From positions 1,364,001 through 1,428,000 of the forward strand of contig NZ_CP042909.1 of assembly GCF_012317585.1 (NCBI RefSeq): a stretch of 64,000 nucleotides of DNA, read 5' to 3'. This document shows positions 56,378 through 64,000 of this stretch, piece after piece (position 1 is the first letter of the stretch; each line of letters begins with the position of its first letter). The position numbers were made by a program, and so were the translations under genes. The notes under the pieces are model-generated. The model did not search any database. It saw nothing but the letters and a program-made list of their open reading frames with translations, and was not told the DNA's origin. This DNA comes from Thermosulfurimonas marina. GTDB taxonomy: Bacteria; Desulfobacterota; Thermodesulfobacteria; Thermodesulfobacteriales; Thermodesulfobacteriaceae.

Positions 56378-57406
56378 TTGCGGAAGTATCTGATACCGGC
56401 CCTTTTGATCCTTTCGGCCGCCGTTGTGGGCTTTTTTGTCCTGCGGTACTTCCCCTTTGAGGGAGGTCGGGTCTATTCGCCCTGGCTGGGTTTTCTGGGA
56501 GGAGGCCTGGCGGGGTTCCTTATCCTGCTTTTGGAAAGGGCCATCCGGAGGCTCCCTTTTCTCCAGATCCTAGGCGGGGCCATCGGGTTACTTCTCGGCT
56601 TGGCCCTGGCCCGACTCCTCTCCTCTTTTTTCCAGGTCTTTACCCGGGGACCCTGGACGGCCTTTCTCTATACCATGCTGGCCCTGGGGTTGGGCTATCT
56701 GGGACTGGTGGTCGGGGGAAGACGCTTTCGGGAGTTGCGCCTTCCAGAGGGGCTAACCCATCCTTTCTCCTATGTCTCCAAAAAATTTCCTCGGCGGGAG
56801 TGTCCCAAAGTGGTGGACACCAGCGCCATCATTGACGGGCGCCTGGCCGATATCTGTGAGACCGGTTGGGTGGAGGGCCCGCTAATTATCCCCAATTTCG
56901 TGTTGCAGGAACTCCAGCAGGTGGCCGACAGTCGAGAGCACGCCCGGCGGGAAAGGGGGCGCCGGGGGCTGGACCACTTGCGTCGCATTCAGGAGTCCGG
57001 CAAGGTGGAGGTGCGGTTTATCGATCAGGACTATCCGCGGCTCAGAGACATCGATGCCAAGCTGGTGAGGCTCTGCCGGGAGCTTTCGGCCAAGCTCATC
57101 ACTACGGACTACAATCTCAATAAAGTGGCCCGGCTCAAGGGAGTGGAAGTCTTAAATGTCAACGAATTAGCCCTGGCCCTGCGCCCGGTGGTCACTCCCG
57201 GAGAGGAATTACGGGTGGAGATCATCAAGGAGGGTAAGGAGCGGCATCAAGGGGTGGGCTATCTTTCGGATGGGACCATGGTGGTGGTGGAAGGCGGTCG
57301 AGAGTTCATCGGCCAGGAGGTGGAGGTAGTGGTGACCAGTCTGTTGCAGACCCCTTCCGGACGCATCGTCTTTGCGCAGCCCAAGGCCCGGGCCCGGGTG
57401 GCCTGA
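56378..57406 (+). CDS. YacL-like PIN/TRAM domain membrane protein
   Basis: 342 residues from TTG (GAGGGAG upstream). Four N-terminal membrane helices (about residues 5-120) are followed by a PIN nuclease domain with acidic residues in VVDTSAIIDGRLADI, the helix LVLQELQQVADS-like region, DIDAKLVRL and ITTDYNLNKVA. A C-terminal TRAM domain (about 275-335) probably binds RNA. This is the standard YacL arrangement next to CarD. It is a candidate membrane-bound RNase; the substrate is unknown. Confidence 0.9.
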   Translation: MRKYLIPALLILSAAVVGFFVLRYFPFEGGRVYSPWLGFLGGGLAGFLILLLERAIRRLPFLQILGGAIGLLLGLALARLLSSFFQVFTRGPWTAFLYTMLALGLGYLGLVVGGRRFRELRLPEGLTHPFSYVSKKFPRRECPKVVDTSAIIDGRLADICETGWVEGPLIIPNFVLQELQQVADSREHARRERGRRGLDHLRRIQESGKVEVRFIDQDYPRLRDIDAKLVRLCRELSAKLITTDYNLNKVARLKGVEVLNVNELALALRPVVTPGEELRVEIIKEGKERHQGVGYLSDGTMVVVEGGREFIGQEVEVVVTSLLQTPSGRIVFAQPKARARVA

Positions 57407-57409
57407 TCT

Positions 57410-59056
57410 GTGCCCCGCATTCGTATCCTTCCCCAGGAAGTCAGTGCCCGCATTGCTGCGGGAGAGGTGGTGGAGCGCCCGGCCTCGGTGGTCAAGGAGT
57501 TGGTAGAAAACGCCCTGGATGCCGGGGCCCGGCAGGTGAGGGTGGAACTCGAGGAAGGGGGCCGCCGCAGGATCCAGGTGGTGGACGACGGAGAAGGAAT
57601 GAGCCCCGAGGACCTGCGGCTTTCCTGGCGACCCCACGCCACCAGTAAAATTTCCACCCTGGAAGATCTTTCCCGGATCACTACTTACGGCTTTCGAGGG
57701 GAGGCCCTCCACAGCATGGCCCAGGTCTCAAGACTCACCCTCGTCTCCCGTCCTCCTTCTCAAGAGGAAGGCTGGCTTCTCCGGGTGGCCTTTGGAGAGG
57801 AAGAGGATTTTCGGCCCTGTGGGGCTCCCACCGGGACCACGGTGGTGGTGGAAGATCTCTTTGCCCGTCTTCCGGCCCGCCGAGCCTTTCTCAAGGGTCC
57901 TCGGGCAGAGACCTCTCGGGTGGTGGAGATGGTGCGGCTTGCGGCTCTGGCCCGTCCGCAGACCTCCTTCCGCGTGCGACAGGCCGGCCGGGACCTCTTT
58001 TTCTTTCCCGGGGGCTCCCGGCGAGGACTTCTTTCCCGGATCCTTTCCGTGCCGGAGGAGGCTTTGCGGGCGGAGACTTTCGAGGAGAAAGAGTTGCGGG
58101 CGGAGTTTCTCCTGGTTTCCCCCGAAAGGGCCCCCTCCACCTCCAGGCACCTTTACTTTTTGGTAAATGATCGCGTGGTGCGGGACCGGGGCCTGGCGGC
58201 GGCCCTTTTGGAGGGCCTGCGCGGGGTCTATCCCCCGGGAAGAGCCCCGGCCGGACTCCTGGCCCTCTACCTCCCGCCCCACCTGGTGGACGTGAACGTG
58301 CATCCCGCCAAATGGGAGGTCCGCTTTCGCAATGAACATGAACTTTACGGACGCCTCCGGCGCTGGGCCGAAAGGCTCTTTAAGCCTCAGGTCTTTAAGT
58401 TCTATTCTCCCTCAGAGGAGGAAGATCTTCCCCTTTCCGCAGGTCCTCCCTCCGGGCCGCCTGCGGAAAGACCTCGGGTGGCCGAAGGAAGGCTCTTTTT
58501 CTCGGAGGTCCCCTCCCCCGGCCCCCGGTATCTGGGGACCCTGGGGGAAAAATATCTCCTTTTTGAGGTGGAAGAGGGGCTCCTCCTCCTTGATTTCCAT
58601 GCGGCCCACGAAAGGATCCTTTATGAAGATCTTCTCTCCGGCTCCGAGGCCCCGGAACCCCTTCTTTTTCCCGCGGTCTTTGAGCTTTCGGCCGAGGCCC
58701 AGGAGAGACTTGCGGCCCTTGAGGAAGACCTTTCGGCCTTGGGTTTTTCCCTGCGGGAGGCCGGGCCCCGGGAGGTGCTGGTGGAGAAGGTGCCCGCGGG
58801 CCTGGGGCTTTCCGCGGTGGAGGCCCTGCGGGAGGTGCTGGAGGAGGGGCTGGCTCCGGAAAGACTGCGGGAGGAGTTGGCCGCCCGCCTGGCCTGTCAT
58901 CTGGCCCTCCGGGCTGGAGAGAGGCTTTCTCCGGAGGAGGCCCTCCGCCTTCTCCTCACGGTAAAGGGGCGAGGCCTGGAGCGCTGTCCCCACGGGCGCC
59001 CTCTATGGATTATCCTTAGTCGGGATGAACTCGACCGCCGTTTCGGCCGAAAGTGA
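57410..59056 (+). CDS. mutL: DNA mismatch repair protein MutL
   Basis: 548 residues from GTG. The GHKL ATPase has ELVENALDAGA, DDGEGM and TYGFRGEALHSM in the first 100 residues. The C-terminal domain holds DFHAAHERILYE (about 395), the metal-binding DQHAxxExxxxE endonuclease motif with F in place of Q, and a late RCPHGRP. It should therefore nick DNA itself and need no MutH. No mutS is in the window. It overlaps miaA by 32 bp. Confidence 0.95.
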   Translation: MPRIRILPQEVSARIAAGEVVERPASVVKELVENALDAGARQVRVELEEGGRRRIQVVDDGEGMSPEDLRLSWRPHATSKISTLEDLSRITTYGFRGEALHSMAQVSRLTLVSRPPSQEEGWLLRVAFGEEEDFRPCGAPTGTTVVVEDLFARLPARRAFLKGPRAETSRVVEMVRLAALARPQTSFRVRQAGRDLFFFPGGSRRGLLSRILSVPEEALRAETFEEKELRAEFLLVSPERAPSTSRHLYFLVNDRVVRDRGLAAALLEGLRGVYPPGRAPAGLLALYLPPHLVDVNVHPAKWEVRFRNEHELYGRLRRWAERLFKPQVFKFYSPSEEEDLPLSAGPPSGPPAERPRVAEGRLFFSEVPSPGPRYLGTLGEKYLLFEVEEGLLLLDFHAAHERILYEDLLSGSEAPEPLLFPAVFELSAEAQERLAALEEDLSALGFSLREAGPREVLVEKVPAGLGLSAVEALREVLEEGLAPERLREELAARLACHLALRAGERLSPEEALRLLLTVKGRGLERCPHGRPLWIILSRDELDRRFGRK

Positions 59057-59969
59057 GAAGCCCCGGGTGGTGGCCGTAGTAGGGCCCACCGGAGTGGGCA
59101 AAAGCGCTCTGGCCATAGAGCTGGCCGAGCGCTTCGGCGGAGAGGTGGTCAATTTTGATTCGGTGCAGGTCTACCGGGGACTGGACATTGGGACCGCCAA
59201 GCCCGGGCCGGAGGAACGTTCCCGGGTCCCCCACCACCTCTTTGATTTTCTCGAACCCTGGGAGGAATTCAACGCCGCGGCCTACGCCGAAAAGGCCCAA
59301 AGGGTTGTCCGGGAGATCGTGGCCCGGGGAAGACTCCCGGTGCTCGCCGGAGGCACGGGCCTTTACCTCAAGGCCCTCCTTCACGGGCTTTTCCCGGTGG
59401 AGGTCCCCCGCGAGATCCGGGAGGCCCTGCGCCAAAGACTGGAAAAAGCGGGCCTTTCCGCCCTTTACGCCGAGCTTTCGCGGGTGGATCCCGAGGCTGC
59501 CCGGCGCATTCATCCCCACGATCGGGTGCGGGTGCTCCGGGCCCTGGAGGTCTTTTACGCCACTGGGAGGCCCTTTTCCGCGCTGGCTCGGGAACATGCC
59601 TTCCGGGAGAGCCGTTTCCAGGCCTTAAAAATCGGCCTTTACCTTCCCCGGGAGGAACTCTACCGGCGCCTGGAGGCCCGGGTGGAGGAGATGCTCTCCC
59701 GGGGGCTGCTTGAGGAGGTGCGCGGCCTTCTTTCCCGAGGCCTCTCTCCGGAGCTAAAACCCCTTCAGTCCATAGGCTACCGGCACATGATCGCCTATCT
59801 TACCGGAAAACTCCCCTGGGAGGAGGCCGTGCGCCTCATGAAAAGGGACACCCGGCGTTACGCCAAGCGGCAGCTTACCTGGTTCCGGGCCGACCCCGAG
59901 GTCCACTGGTTTCAACCCCAGGAAAAAGAAAAAATTTTTCGTCTGGTGGAAAAATTTCTTTCCTCTTGA
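59025..59969 (+). CDS. miaA: tRNA dimethylallyltransferase MiaA
   Basis: 314 residues. The P-loop VVGPTGVGKSALAIELA lies at the start, then DSVQVYRGLDIGTAKP, LAGGTGLYLKALLHG and the late QSIGYRHMIAYL with KRQLTWFR. It adds dimethylallyl to N6 of A37 in tRNAs reading U-starting codons. mutL-miaA is a common gene pair. A 53-bp gap follows before the YcaO gene. Confidence 0.97.
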   Translation: MNSTAVSAESEKPRVVAVVGPTGVGKSALAIELAERFGGEVVNFDSVQVYRGLDIGTAKPGPEERSRVPHHLFDFLEPWEEFNAAAYAEKAQRVVREIVARGRLPVLAGGTGLYLKALLHGLFPVEVPREIREALRQRLEKAGLSALYAELSRVDPEAARRIHPHDRVRVLRALEVFYATGRPFSALAREHAFRESRFQALKIGLYLPREELYRRLEARVEEMLSRGLLEEVRGLLSRGLSPELKPLQSIGYRHMIAYLTGKLPWEEAVRLMKRDTRRYAKRQLTWFRADPEVHWFQPQEKEKIFRLVEKFLSS

Positions 59970-60022
59970 AGTCCCGCCTCCCTTAGGTATGCTTTTTCTT
60001 GAATTTTTAGGAGGAGGATGTG

Positions 60023-61774
60023 ATGGGGCAGTATCTATCCCGGCTCTGGGAAGAGCCTTCGCCCAAAAAAATCGCCGACAAGTGCCGGGATCCGGAGGAG
60101 ACTATCGCCTGGGTGGAGGAGCGCCTTTCCGCCTCGGGTCTTAAGGTCTTCCGGGAGCTTAAGCGCATAGACAAGGGGCGTCTGGGAATTCCGGTTTATA
60201 TCAGTCTTTACGACGTGGAAGGCCAGCTGGTCACCGGGAACTACAAACAGATGGGAAAGGGGGCCACGGATATCCTTTCCCGGGCCAGTGCCCTGATGGA
60301 ACTGGTGGAGCGTTTTTCCCTCTTTTCTTACGTAAAAAAGATGCAGGCCGAGCCCCTGCGGCCGCTCTCTCAGGTGCCTGAGGCCCTGAGTCCGGCCGAG
60401 CTCCTCGAGTCCCTTGACGATCCTGAAGGGGATATGCGGGGCCGGGCCTATGTGGAGCGGCTTCTTCCGGAGGTCCCCTTTCAGTTTACGCCGGCTCTTG
60501 CGGTAGCCGAGGGGCGACGCCGGGCCCTTCCCTTCTTTTGGTTCTGGATCCTCTACGAGTATAACGGCTCGGCCGCGGGAAACACCTATTCCGAGGCCGC
60601 GGTCCAGGCCACCTGTGAACTCATCGAACGCCACGTTTCCGCCCTTTCCCACCGCCTGAGAACTCCCATGCCCGAGATCCGCAGGGAGTCCATTGCCGGG
60701 GAGGGAGACCGGCTCTGCCGCTGTTTCGAGCGCTTGGGCATCCGTCTCTGGATCCGGGACATGACCTACGGGATGCCTGCTCCCACGGTGGCGGCCATGG
60801 CCCTGGATCCTTCCACCTATCCCCACCGCAGCGAGATCGTCTATGCCTCCGGTACCGGAACCACTCCGGAGCGGGCTTTAATTCGCACCCTCACGGAGAT
60901 CGCCCAGCTCGCCGGAGATTTTGATACCGAGGGCAAGTACCTGGAAAGTGCCCTTCCCAAGTTTGGAGATCTCACCGAGGCCTCCTATGTGGTGGAGAAG
61001 GCCGGGGAGATGGATCTCTCCGAGCTTCCGGATATTTCCGCCCCGGACCACCGGGAAGAGCTGGCTCGCCTGGCCTCCGAACTTCGTGAGCGGGGCTATC
61101 ATCTCTACCTGGTGGATATCGCCCACCCCCGGCTGGAACTTCCCGCGGTCTACGCGGTGATCCCCGGGGCCCTTTTCCGGGAAAGGACCCGGATCTCCCC
61201 TCTCTATCACCTGGCCCGGGTGGTGGCCCTTTATCTCCCGCGGGAGAGGGCCCTTCCCCTTCTGCGACGCATGGTGGAGGAAGCCCCGCCCCGCTATTAC
61301 ACCTGGGCCTATCTGGGAGGCCTCCTTTCCGAGGAGGGAGAAGGGGAGGGGGCGGTCTCCGCGCTCCGACGGGCCCTGGAGCTCTCCCCGGAGCCGGCGG
61401 ACCGTCCGGCGGTTTATGCCCACCTGGCCGAGGCCCTTCTCCGGGCCGGGAAACCTTCCGAGGCCCTCCGGGCTGCCGAAGAGGGGCTTTCCTGGGAGGA
61501 GTTTCCCGAACTCTGGAACCTGGTGGGCCGGGCCCGGTTCCGTCTAGGAGAATACGAGGAGGCCCTTACCGCCTTTTTCCGGGCCGTGGAACTCAACCCG
61601 GCCTCGGTGGTGGACCTAGCCAATATCGGCTGGTGTCTCAAGGAGATGGGCCTTCCGGAGGAGGCCCGGGGCTTTTTCGAAAACGCCCTGGCTCTCGATC
61701 CCACTTTGCAGATGGCCCGAGAGGGTTTAAGGTGGTGCGAAGAGGCTGTCCGCAAGGAGGAGAGCCATGTTTAA
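60023..61774 (+). CDS. YcaO-domain protein with C-terminal TPR repeats
   Basis: About 583 residues from the ATG at 60023 (GGAGGAGG 5 nt upstream; a GTG lies one codon earlier). The YcaO core covers about 60-410, with ATP-binding stretches MELVERFSLFSY, AVQATCELIERHVSAL and SGTGTTPERALIRTLTEIAQL. Residues 430-580 are TPR repeats. YcaO enzymes phosphorylate amide backbones; some make azolines or thioamides, and E. coli YcaO aids RimO methylthiolation of S12. No RiPP precursor, TfuA or cyclodehydratase partner is nearby. It overlaps the NIL-ferredoxin gene by 8 bp, hinting at a sulfur-transfer role. Confidence 0.85.
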   Translation: MGQYLSRLWEEPSPKKIADKCRDPEETIAWVEERLSASGLKVFRELKRIDKGRLGIPVYISLYDVEGQLVTGNYKQMGKGATDILSRASALMELVERFSLFSYVKKMQAEPLRPLSQVPEALSPAELLESLDDPEGDMRGRAYVERLLPEVPFQFTPALAVAEGRRRALPFFWFWILYEYNGSAAGNTYSEAAVQATCELIERHVSALSHRLRTPMPEIRRESIAGEGDRLCRCFERLGIRLWIRDMTYGMPAPTVAAMALDPSTYPHRSEIVYASGTGTTPERALIRTLTEIAQLAGDFDTEGKYLESALPKFGDLTEASYVVEKAGEMDLSELPDISAPDHREELARLASELRERGYHLYLVDIAHPRLELPAVYAVIPGALFRERTRISPLYHLARVVALYLPRERALPLLRRMVEEAPPRYYTWAYLGGLLSEEGEGEGAVSALRRALELSPEPADRPAVYAHLAEALLRAGKPSEALRAAEEGLSWEEFPELWNLVGRARFRLGEYEEALTAFFRAVELNPASVVDLANIGWCLKEMGLPEEARGFFENALALDPTLQMAREGLRWCEEAVRKEESHV

Positions 61775-62189
61775 GAGGGGTCTGGTGCTCCGTTTCCCGG
61801 CCGAAGTGGTGGATCAGCCCATTGTCTGGCGGCTGGTCAAGGACTTCGACCTCTCCTTCAATATCCTCAAGGCCACCATCCTGCCCGGAAAAGAGGGCAT
61901 TATGGTCATGGAACTTTCCGGGCATCCCAAAAACGTCTCCCGGGGCCTCCAGTATCTGCGGGATCTGGGGGTGGAGGTCAAGCCCATCGGGCAGGAAATT
62001 CGCCGCCGGGAGGACCTCTGCATCCATTGCGGCTCCTGTACGGCCGTCTGTCCCACCGGGGCCCTTTCGGTCAACCGTGAGACCATGGAGGTAATCTTTG
62101 ACCCCGATCGCTGTAGCGCCTGTGAACTCTGTGTGACCGCCTGTGTGGTCCGGGCCATGGAGGTGCGCCTTGAGCGCGAAGCCCTATGA
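61767..62189 (+). CDS. NIL-domain ferredoxin (two [4Fe-4S])
   Basis: 140 residues. The N-terminal 75 residues match the NIL domain (LRFPAEVVDQPIVWRLVKDF). The C-terminus has two cluster motifs, CIHCGSCTAVCPTG and CSACELCVTAC. Similar fusions in methanogens and sulfate reducers are needed for sulfide incorporation into homocysteine with DUF39 proteins. Here the partner genes are YcaO-TPR upstream and mnmA downstream (4-bp overlap), so it may feed electrons or sulfur to a thiolation reaction. That role is inferred from context. Confidence 0.88.
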   Translation: MFKRGLVLRFPAEVVDQPIVWRLVKDFDLSFNILKATILPGKEGIMVMELSGHPKNVSRGLQYLRDLGVEVKPIGQEIRRREDLCIHCGSCTAVCPTGALSVNRETMEVIFDPDRCSACELCVTACVVRAMEVRLEREAL

Positions 62190-63217
62190 TCGCCGTGGCC
62201 CTCTCCGGGGGGGTGGACAGCGCCTATGCGGCCTGGCGACTCTCCCGTAAACACCCCGTCCTTCTGGTCCACGCCCGCTTTCTTCCGGAAGATACCTCTG
62301 AAAGACCCCGTCGGCTGGCCGAGGCCTTGGGCCTTCCCCTGGAGGTGCTGGACCTCCGGGAGGCCTTCGAGGAGCGGGTCATCCGCTATTTCCGCGAGGC
62401 CTATCTCCGGGGCCTCACCCCCAACCCCTGCGTAATCTGCAACCGGGAGATAAAGTTTGGGCTCCTTCTGGAGGCCGTTCGCCGTCTAGGGGCCGAAAAA
62501 CTGGCCACCGGCCATTATGCCCGGGTGCGCTACGATCCGGAAACCGGCCGCTACCTCCTTTACAAGGGGCGGGATACCCGCAAGGACCAGAGCTATTTCC
62601 TGCATCAACTCTCTCAGGAGGCCCTCTCCCGGGTCCTTTTCCCGTTAGGGGATTTTCTCAAGGAAGAGGTCATCCGGGAGGCCGTGCGCCTGGGATTTTT
62701 CAACCTCACCGCCCCGGAGAGCCAGGAGGTCTGTTTCATCAAGGGAGATTATCGGGAGCTTTTCCGAGGGTTTGAGACCCCGGAAGGGGAAATGGTCACC
62801 GTGGACGGACGGGTAGTGGGACGCCATCGGGGGCTTTTTGCTTATACCGTAGGGCAGAGGAGGGGGCTTGGTCTGCGGCTGGGAAAGCCCTATTATGTGG
62901 TGGCCCTGGACCCCAAACACAACCGGGTGATCGTGGGGGAAAAGCGGCACCTCCTGCGGCGCACCCTGCGGGTGGGAGGAGTCAATTTCATTTATCCCCT
63001 GGACCCGGACCGCCCCTTTGAGGCCGCGGTACGCCTCCGTTATCGGCACCAGGAGGCCCCGGCCCGGGTGGAGCCTTTGGGAGGAGGGATCTTTCGGGTA
63101 GTATTTGAAAGACCCCAACGGGCGGTGACCCCGGGGCAGTTTGCCGTCTTTTACCGGGAGGATCTGGTTCTGGGTGGGGGAGAAATCCTGCCGGAGGAGG
63201 AGCCATGGCCCGAGTGA
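62186..63217 (+). CDS. mnmA: tRNA-specific 2-thiouridylase MnmA
   Basis: 343 residues. The PP-loop VALSGGVDSAYAA starts the protein. The catalytic cysteines are in NPCVICNREIKFG and ESQEVCFI, and DQSYFLHQL and YTVGQRRGLG are family marks. It adds sulfur to C2 of U34 in tRNA-Lys/Glu/Gln, the same wobble base modified by MnmG. No cysteine desulfurase or Tus relay gene is adjacent; the NIL-ferredoxin upstream may serve a related function. It overlaps the next gene by 13 bp. Confidence 0.95.
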   Translation: MIAVALSGGVDSAYAAWRLSRKHPVLLVHARFLPEDTSERPRRLAEALGLPLEVLDLREAFEERVIRYFREAYLRGLTPNPCVICNREIKFGLLLEAVRRLGAEKLATGHYARVRYDPETGRYLLYKGRDTRKDQSYFLHQLSQEALSRVLFPLGDFLKEEVIREAVRLGFFNLTAPESQEVCFIKGDYRELFRGFETPEGEMVTVDGRVVGRHRGLFAYTVGQRRGLGLRLGKPYYVVALDPKHNRVIVGEKRHLLRRTLRVGGVNFIYPLDPDRPFEAAVRLRYRHQEAPARVEPLGGGIFRVVFERPQRAVTPGQFAVFYREDLVLGGGEILPEEEPWPE

Positions 63218-64000
63218 GATTCCTACCCTTTGAGGTAGAGATCGAAACCCTGGACGGGGAAACCGTTCTCCATGCGGCCATGCGGGCCGGGGTGCATATT
63301 AACGCCTCTTGTGGAGGGGCCGGGGTTTGTAACAAGTGTCGGGTCTTTGTGGAGGAAGGCCGAGCCCGGGGGGAAAGCCTTCCCGAAGGGGGATATAAGG
63401 CCTGCACCCTGGTGCCGGAGACGGATCTGGTAGTACGGGTCCCGGTGGAAAGCCATCTCGACCGCCGGGCCCTCCTGCGGGCCCCCAAGCGGCGGGCCAC
63501 GGCCTGGCTGGCGGCCGAGGCCCGGGCCCGCGAGATTCCTTTTGAGCCCTCGGTAAAGCGTCATTATCTGGAACTCCCGCCGCCGGATCTTTCCGACAAT
63601 CTCCCGGATCTCAGGCGTCTTAAACGGGGGCTCAAAGAGGTCCTGGGCCAGGAGCCTGAGGTGGAATGGTCTCTCCTTTCGGAACTTCCCTATCGGCTGC
63701 GCCAGGAAAACTTTCGGGTCACGGTCACCCTCTATGACCATCCCGAAAGGTCGGCCCCGGTGGTTCAAAGGGTGCACCCCGGAAAGGCTACGGAGTCTCT
63801 GGCCGTAGCCGTGGATGTGGGGACCACCACCCTCTGTGCGGAACTGGTGGATCTTTCAAGCGGAGAGGTCCTGGCCGAGACCTCGGACTACAACCCCCAG
63901 ATAAGTTACGGGGAGGACGTCATCAGTCGGATCGAGTTCGCCCGCAGGGAGGGAGGCCTCAAGACCCTGGCCCAGAAAGTCCGGGAGCGGGTGGCCGGCC
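63205..64000 (+). CDS. RACo-like corrinoid-activating protein (2Fe-2S + ASKHA), 3' end missing
   Basis: 265 residues visible, running off the window. GGAGGAGG precedes the ATG. An N-terminal plant-type 2Fe-2S ferredoxin domain has SCGGAGVCNKCRVFVEEG and a fourth cysteine in KACTL. After a linker, the ASKHA ATPase domain begins with AVAVDVGTTTLCAELVDL and NPQISYGEDVISRI. Such DUF4445 proteins reductively reactivate corrinoid methyltransferase cofactors with ATP. It fits the cobQ and MetF-MetV genes in the window. Its target corrinoid protein is not present here. Confidence 0.88.
   Translation, partial: MARVRFLPFEVEIETLDGETVLHAAMRAGVHINASCGGAGVCNKCRVFVEEGRARGESLPEGGYKACTLVPETDLVVRVPVESHLDRRALLRAPKRRATAWLAAEARAREIPFEPSVKRHYLELPPPDLSDNLPDLRRLKRGLKEVLGQEPEVEWSLLSELPYRLRQENFRVTVTLYDHPERSAPVVQRVHPGKATESLAVAVDVGTTTLCAELVDLSSGEVLAETSDYNPQISYGEDVISRIEFARREGGLKTLAQKVRERVAG

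Follow-up and report, generated by a model that had tools for sequence, protein, structure and literature searches.

A YcaO-TPR, NIL-ferredoxin, and MnmA operon of Thermosulfurimonas marina as a candidate sulfur-insertion module

Four overlapping genes at the end of a 64,000-nucleotide stretch of Thermosulfurimonas marina DNA (contig NZ_CP042909.1; the whole stretch is termed the window) raise the question of why an amide-activating enzyme, a ferredoxin, a tRNA thiolase, and a corrinoid activator should be encoded together. All lie on the + strand in the order ycaO-TPR (60020..61774), NIL-ferredoxin (61767..62189), mnmA (62186..63217), and a RACo-like gene (63205..64000 within the window), joined by overlaps of 8, 4, and 13 bp, and their family matches are those given by the original prediction. 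The ycaO start is a GTG at 60020 with an in-frame ATG at 60023, and AGGAGG-type ribosome sites precede ycaO, the ferredoxin gene, and the RACo-like gene. The gene for tRNA A37 dimethylallyltransferase, miaA (59025..59969, +; TIGR00174, 325 bits), is located 50 bp upstream, an adjacency kept only in the closest relatives. Rfam searches gave no riboswitch or other RNA match near the cluster in the window and only RNase P and a tRNA around the loci of relatives, a promoter scan of the cluster found nothing, and the terminator-like sites of the cluster fall within genes. Within the 1.763 Mb genome, the YcaO and the NIL protein are both single-copy.

The operon is read here, with close to an even chance of being right, as a sulfur-insertion module that serves the translation apparatus and in which the NIL-ferredoxin is a shared auxiliary. 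MnmA, as assigned by family, would adenylate tRNA U34 and swap its 2-oxygen for sulfur to form s2U34. The TPR-fused YcaO would phosphorylate an amide in the backbone of some folded protein, with uL16 as one candidate target, and sulfide would then replace the oxygen to yield a thioamide. The NIL-ferredoxin would be a shared reductant or sulfur-relay partner for both enzymes: by means of its low-potential electrons (or a relay contact), MnmA and YcaO would receive sulfide generated from polysulfide or from the persulfide or sulfane sulfur of NifS-TusA. A point against this reading is that no electrons are consumed when thioamidation starts from free sulfide, so a ferredoxin is called for only where the sulfur comes in as persulfide. 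The RACo-like gene would belong to B12 activation, a separate function, and would have entered the operon in this branch alone.

The NIL-ferredoxin (140 aa; PF09383, 63 bits, with Fer4) consists of a NIL domain without cysteines (residues 8-72; 61788..61982) followed by two 4Fe-4S motifs. Sequence comparison places the eight cluster cysteines at C85, C88, C91, C95, C116, C119, C122, and C126 (62019..62144), and all eight are kept in 69 of 70 relatives. No cysteine lies outside the two four-cysteine motifs, a composition that fits electron transfer. An archaeal relative has been named as a likely electron supplier (PMC12068725).

The genomic surroundings of the NIL-ferredoxin are rich in sulfur genes. 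It is encoded within 3.5 kb of MnmA in 53 of the 111 genomes that have both, covering 25 of 53 families against about 0.25 expected, and the linked genes mostly run NIL then MnmA with a gap near 0. Other neighbors are DUF39/COG2122, MtaB, LarE, CysK, and, where YcaO is also present, Thi4; among 38 sampled NIL loci that lack MnmA, 30 lie no more than 2.5 kb from a sulfur gene. Such repeated placement beside sulfur-inserting enzymes across the phylum suggests that several sulfur-insertion pathways are served and not only methionine synthesis. Relatives also carry NIL-ferredoxin-IscR-NifS-(IscU)-MnmA-MtaB operons, which, like operons of the isc-mnmA-mtaB type with a ferredoxin, set a ferredoxin beside a desulfurase and a tRNA thiolase, although the ferredoxin here is of the NIL-2[4Fe-4S] kind and NifS is encoded elsewhere in the window genome. 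The E. coli isc ferredoxin Fdx is a [2Fe-2S] protein. A literature search, with most subscription journals outside it, found nothing joining YcaO with a NIL domain and ferredoxin, or COG1900 with MnmA. A broader generalization is possible but doubtful: anaerobes may use the NIL-ferredoxin for sulfur insertion in general, from homocysteine synthesis to tRNA 2-thiolation and, in this operon, thioamidation of a protein backbone, and in this lineage it may be what supplies TPR-YcaO with sulfide equivalents.

Homocysteine synthesis is the sole demonstrated role of the NIL-ferredoxin, which is needed for that pathway in D. vulgaris (PMC5764234). The same NIL and 2[4Fe-4S] protein belongs to L-aspartate semialdehyde sulfurtransferase systems (DUF39/COG1900 with NIL-ferredoxin MA1821-22, and the D. 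vulgaris pathway), and the window protein, with its NIL domain, two 4Fe-4S motifs, and a DUF39 in the genome, has the makeup of an L-ASST NIL-ferredoxin. As the only NIL protein present, it very likely supports DUF39 homocysteine synthesis. The operon could then be a methionine module, in which the NIL-ferredoxin serves DUF39 only, RACo reactivates the B12 of methionine synthase, and YcaO and MnmA share transcription but not chemistry. NIL-DUF39 adjacency in 38 of 95 genomes agrees with this, as do the part that RamA-like DUF4445 proteins play in reactivating B12 for methionine synthesis and the rescue of NIL/ferredoxin mutants by methionine (PMC5764234). However, the NIL-ferredoxin-MnmA linkage is at least as widespread and persists through several gene orders. 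Unlike in the sulfurtransferase systems, the window NIL-ferredoxin is encoded with ycaO and mnmA and is ~300 kb from DUF39 (G000:C1:1125795 for DUF39 and 1425788 for NIL). The RACo-like protein itself (627 aa, the gene running 1.1 kb beyond the window end after its 5' 265 codons) has the Fer2 and RACo linker, middle, and C-terminal domains of RACo/AcsV corrinoid activators, but scores below the AcsV cut-off (NF040756, 614.3 bits against 800) and joins the operon in only four loci of close relatives. A purely methionine-related unit is considered unlikely, though a serious contender.

MnmA (343 aa) is an equivalog-level match (NF001138, 348.5 bits, cut-off 284). Its only cysteines are the catalytic C82 and C85, which form the CxxC (62429..62440), and C183 (62732-62734), which completes a three-cysteine set. 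Across an alignment of 101 MnmAs, every sequence has the CxxC, and the third cysteine is lacking only in four sequences that are gapped or truncated there. The idea that linkage to the ferredoxin picks out a distinct MnmA subtype was dropped, since the cysteine set does not separate linked from unlinked MnmAs. By sequence, the window enzyme thus has the CxxC...C pattern of [4Fe-4S]-dependent tRNA thiolases; in NcsA/TtuA-type enzymes these cysteines bind a [4Fe-4S] cluster in which an iron is left free to take sulfide (PMC10067955). Sulfur delivery to MnmA is described as unsettled (PMC11784392).

That cysteine pattern lends itself to a reading near the original prediction, in which the NIL-ferredoxin carries sulfur as a cluster-bound hydrosulfide or persulfide to MnmA, YcaO, and DUF39, or these enzymes take sulfide directly, and high sulfide would make a cysteine desulfurase dispensable. 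Na2S can serve E. coli YcaO as its sulfur source (PMC13063428), and a related operon described below includes a sulfide-dependent Thi4. Against a carrier function, the ferredoxin has no cysteine beyond its cluster motifs. Against a bypass, the genome encodes two NifS-type desulfurases, one at a locus with TusA-family and IscU genes and the other as ThiI-NifS, and NifS stands between NIL-ferredoxin and MnmA in the operons of relatives. The reading is improbable, and the predicted absence of a cysteine desulfurase does not hold. What stands of the predicted route is a conserved sulfur-insertion neighborhood; a share of YcaO in tRNA thiolation found no support, as its solved and characterized relatives act on peptide backbones.

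YcaO-TPR (584 aa; PF02624, 192 bits) has a catalytic domain at residues 78-384 (60251..61171, Pfam boundaries) and a C-terminal TPR domain at residues 394-584 (61199..61771; TPR Pfam matches at 438-562 and model helices at 394-583), the arrangement of E. coli-type YcaO by Pfam, model, and fold. Residues E94, E97, E200, E203, R289, E293, and Q296 are invariant in an alignment of 28 sequences, and the ATP/Mg glutamates, Arg, and Gln line up with MjYcaO, which places the protein among the ATP-dependent amide activators of the YcaO superfamily; backbone thioamidation is its proposed activity. The AF2 model (pLDDT 93) matches the archaeal McrA-thioamidating MjYcaO best (Z 35.6 over 335 residues), with E. 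coli YcaO ranking lower. By sequence the core is likewise nearest to McrA-thioamidating YcaO (77 bits) and shares the ATP-site motifs of the methanogen enzyme (TIGR03266; PDB 6PE3, 6CI7), which, in contrast, has no TPR domain. Scores fall below the cut-offs both for McrA-glycine thioamidation (TIGR03266, 97.4 bits against 365) and for the E. coli uL16-thioamidating type (NF040716, 38.9 bits against 700). The pI is 5.19 compared with 4.4 in E. coli YcaO, and relatives are mostly at 5.0-5.9. The uL16 of the window genome carries the loop ETRMGKGKG; the RMGKGKG loop is widespread in bacteria, and its use as a thioamidation signature was dropped as not diagnostic. E. coli YcaO, the uL16 Met82 thioamidase (PDB 4Q84-86), is likewise a YcaO with a C-terminal TPR from a housekeeping-like gene without an adjoining TfuA or RiPP partner, whereas the window YcaO is encoded with NIL-ferredoxin and mnmA.

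Among Thermodesulfobacteria-type (f1) loci with enough flank, YcaO is followed by NIL-ferredoxin on the same strand in every one except T. dismutans S95, where ycaO is elsewhere yet NIL-ferredoxin and mnmA adjoin. Two genomes of a second family (f38) have the order DUF39-NIL-ferredoxin-YcaO-Thi4, the Thi4 scoring above its cut-off as a sulfide-dependent thiazole synthase. The YcaO-NIL-ferredoxin pairing may be local, since just 2 of the 22 sampled families that carry both genes show it. The four-gene unit is confined to close relatives, and its durable pieces are NIL-ferredoxin with MnmA, phylum-wide, and YcaO with NIL-ferredoxin in the window's family plus the two f38 genomes. Because the neighborhood is conserved well beyond this genome, the cluster is not a product of chance and the outcome named as contrary to the original prediction did not occur, RACo being the member tied only to the closest relatives.

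YcaO may alternatively belong to dissimilatory sulfur metabolism, modifying DsrC or another Dsr protein, much as methanogen YcaO modifies McrA, or drawing sulfur from DsrC. DsrC is present in 53 of 56 genomes with YcaO and in 22 of 92 without (Fisher p ~1e-18). In 11 genomes from 8 families the two genes are no more than 2 kb apart, and DsrC usually follows TPR-YcaO 85-240 bp downstream on the same strand, in place of NIL-ferredoxin. The DsrC arm has the sequence GPGKGACKM where YcaO is present, and mostly GPAKGACK[LVI] or a similar one where it is absent. However, in a DsrC tree built without the arm all DsrCs from YcaO genomes form one clade, so both co-occurrence and arm type may reflect a single ancestry. 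The co-occurrence was set aside as independent evidence, there being also too few independent pairs on the MnmA tree, and the arm residue was set aside as a substrate signature. DsrC is 40 kb from ycaO in the window genome, and E. coli YcaO acts on uL16. The chance that this reading is correct is small. Among the 20 papers listed by the literature search (again with most subscription journals outside it), none covers both YcaO and DsrC. It is highly improbable that YcaO acts as a RiPP cyclodehydratase on a peptide missed by annotation: its core also matches LynD/TruD, but no TfuA, RiPP-type, or E1/RRE partner is found among the flanking genes scanned, in line with the original prediction for TfuA, the protein is well conserved with a TPR domain as in the housekeeping E. 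coli YcaO, and its SagD-family score of 78.2 bits is far under the cut-off of 219.

The sulfur-insertion module bears on how TPR-YcaOs receive sulfide: E. coli TPR-fused YcaO thioamidates uL16 using sulfide (Na2S), and the delivery route is stated to be open (PMC13063428). The conserved NIL-ferredoxin-MnmA operon and the YcaO-NIL-ferredoxin or YcaO-DsrC pairs provide concrete, testable partner proteins for sulfide or sulfur supply. If the reading is true, the role of the NIL-ferredoxin would be broader than homocysteine synthesis, and protein thioamides, none of which were found described there in the literature consulted, would be predicted in sulfate reducers and sulfur disproportionators.

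The four genes under study form a tightly packed series on the forward strand of the window. The first, ycaO-TPR (60020-61774), encodes a YcaO enzyme with a C-terminal TPR domain. It is followed by the gene for a NIL-domain ferredoxin with two 4Fe-4S motifs (NIL-Fd, 61767-62189), mnmA (62186-63217), and a gene for a RACo-like corrinoid activator that starts at 63205 and runs past the window end (627 aa in all). Successive overlaps are 8, 4, and 13 bp, AGGAGG-type sites precede ycaO, NIL-Fd, and RACo, and the upstream miaA ends 50 bp before ycaO. The positions and names in the original prediction hold for all four genes, and family scans agree with each name. The genome, a single 1.763-Mb contig, has one ycaO and one NIL gene, and the closest named relatives are Thermosulfurimonas and Thermodesulfatator records (71-76% YcaO identity).

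Flanks were compared for 34 retrieved YcaO relatives. Among Thermodesulfobacteria-type loci whose flanks reach far enough, NIL-Fd directly follows YcaO on the same strand everywhere but in T. dismutans S95, where ycaO lies apart from NIL-Fd and mnmA, yet those two adjoin on another contig. mnmA is next in line in the Thermosulfurimonas group and at loci L012, L019, and L020, and lies divergently just upstream of ycaO at loci L008-L011, L013, L015, L017, L018, L021, L036, L082, L084, and L085. RACo and miaA are joined to the cluster only in the closest relatives. The proposed check of co-occurrence across genomes thus finds the neighborhood conserved beyond this genome, in the flanks of relatives and among 148 phylum genomes. 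Elsewhere in the window (56378-57406), a gene encodes a 342-aa membrane protein whose place upstream of mutL is conserved in relatives; the protein has a PIN-like region by eye and no Pfam match at E 1e-8.

Linkage was surveyed across a phylum sample of 148 genomes; many of the assemblies are fragmented, which depresses the counts, and kinship among genomes makes them non-independent. Of the 111 genomes having both NIL and MnmA, 53 (in 25 of 53 families) place the two within 3.5 kb, against ~0.25 expected from random placement. NIL–DUF39 linkage, involving the homocysteine-synthesis partner of NIL-Fd, occurs in 38/95 genomes and 15/43 families, NIL–YcaO linkage in 7/48 genomes from two families, and MnmA–YcaO linkage in 4/55 genomes, only in the window organism's family. 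The widespread pair is therefore NIL-Fd with MnmA, which YcaO joins in that family. In another family, f38, YcaO sits in a DUF39–NIL-Fd–YcaO–Thi4 operon (L075:6304-10378, L076:6317-10438), and the terminal Thi4 scores above the cut-off for sulfide-dependent ADP-thiazole synthase. When mapped onto an MnmA tree covering 84 genomes, the NIL–MnmA linkage label needs 19 changes, so linkage is not one inherited block, with gains and losses indistinguishable.

Outside the window organism's family, NIL-Fd directly precedes MnmA at 25 loci. Other operon orders are NIL-Fd–IscR–NifS–(IscU)–MnmA–MtaB, with members absent here and there, and DUF39–NIL-Fd–MnmA–LarE. Among 38 NIL loci sampled where MnmA is not nearby, 30 carry one or more sulfur genes within 2.5 kb, including DUF39, a COG2122-type protein, NifS, MtaB, CysK, and a MoeB/threonine-synthase-like set; the pooled 70/78 is not a frequency, because the linked half was chosen for linkage. 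The PRK04334 models matched near NIL-Fd correspond to COG2122/UPF0280. One relative locus (L094:7098-11388) encodes a 79-aa NIL-only protein beside MoeB/rhodanese, threonine-synthase-like, JAMM-like, and CysK genes, a set resembling thiocarboxylate sulfur-carrier pathways.

The suggestion that thiolation proceeds without a cysteine desulfurase is refuted by two NifS genes in the window's genome. One adjoins a TusA-family gene and IscU (L037), and the other overlaps a ThiI-family gene (394 aa, PF02568) by 4 bp (L038:314-2604). In relatives, NifS is coded within the NIL-Fd–MnmA operon itself. The window MnmA, predicted by family to make s2U34, has exactly three cysteines, C82, C85, and C183. They follow the CxxC…C pattern by which NcsA binds a [4Fe-4S] cluster whose free iron is available to hydrosulfide (PMC10067955), and by this analogy direct sulfide use is possible. 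Because the MnmAs read from the phylum generally share this pattern whether or not they are linked, it is no distinguishing mark of the operon.

By family, the window YcaO would use ATP to activate a backbone amide. ATP-site residues are invariant in an alignment of 28 TPR-YcaOs set against M. jannaschii YcaO, and the structure is confidently predicted (pLDDT 93, pTM 0.89). The core is nearest to the archaeal McrA-thioamidating YcaO (77 bits, Z 35.6 over 335 residues), with LynD/TruD behind. E. coli YcaO, likewise TPR-fused, also falls behind the archaeal enzyme (26.5 bits; Z 27.9 over 449 residues, some of them in the TPR). A 2026 study showed that it thioamidates Met82 of uL16 with sulfide in vitro and without TfuA, and left physiological sulfide delivery open (PMC13063428). 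The window YcaO scores 38.9 against the E. coli equivalog cut-off of 700 and so is not filed as that enzyme, and the uL16 loop found in the window's genome is not diagnostic. By resemblance, thioamidation is the best-supported candidate chemistry. A second, shorter YcaO type (~484 aa, ~30% identical) occurs at L082:15940-17397, L074, L078, and L080, and in genome G100 it lies 504 bp from DsrC. A third, very divergent type of ~575 aa with a different N-terminus (L077:7502-9226, L079:7653-9389) gives 26-27 bits to the window YcaO.

In other families, a canonical two-cysteine DsrC lies 85-240 bp downstream of TPR-YcaO on the same strand (loci L024-L028, L032, L059/L091, L070, L086, L087, and L088), often preceded by EF-G or a 165-aa DUF5335-like protein. 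YcaO and DsrC lie within 2 kb of each other in 11 genomes, which represent 8 families, and DsrC is present in 53 of 56 YcaO genomes vs 22 of 92 others. Among DsrC loci L224-L243, the C-terminal arm is GPGKGACKM with YcaO and mostly GPAKGACK[LVI] without, with one exception (genome G033). On a DsrC tree with the arm left out, DsrCs from YcaO genomes all fall in one clade, so co-occurrence and arm difference may reflect a single ancestry. The adjacency still hints that DsrC/TusE proteins might serve TPR-YcaO as donors or as substrates.

In D. vulgaris, NIL-Fd is needed together with DUF39 and COG2122 to make homocysteine (PMC5764234), and the archaeal NIL-Fd counterpart is considered the likely electron supplier (PMC12068725). 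The window's genome encodes DUF39 ~300 kb from the operon and has no second NIL protein, so the NIL-Fd of the operon very probably takes part in homocysteine synthesis as well. It has no cysteines beyond the eight of its clusters, which are conserved in 69/70 relatives, and would therefore act by electron transfer. Its electrons would turn persulfide or sulfane sulfur into sulfide at the sulfur-inserting enzyme, a role likened to that of the isc operon ferredoxin. Some bacteria use RACo-like proteins to reactivate B12 for methionine synthase (PMC5764234); the RACo-like gene may connect to methionine in this way or, equally, to AcsV-type Wood-Ljungdahl use. A limited literature search found no description of such a family combination. 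The cluster is a real, conserved sulfur-insertion neighborhood made of known families, and the reading favored from sequence, with at most moderate confidence, is that one NIL-ferredoxin would be shared by several sulfur-insertion enzymes.
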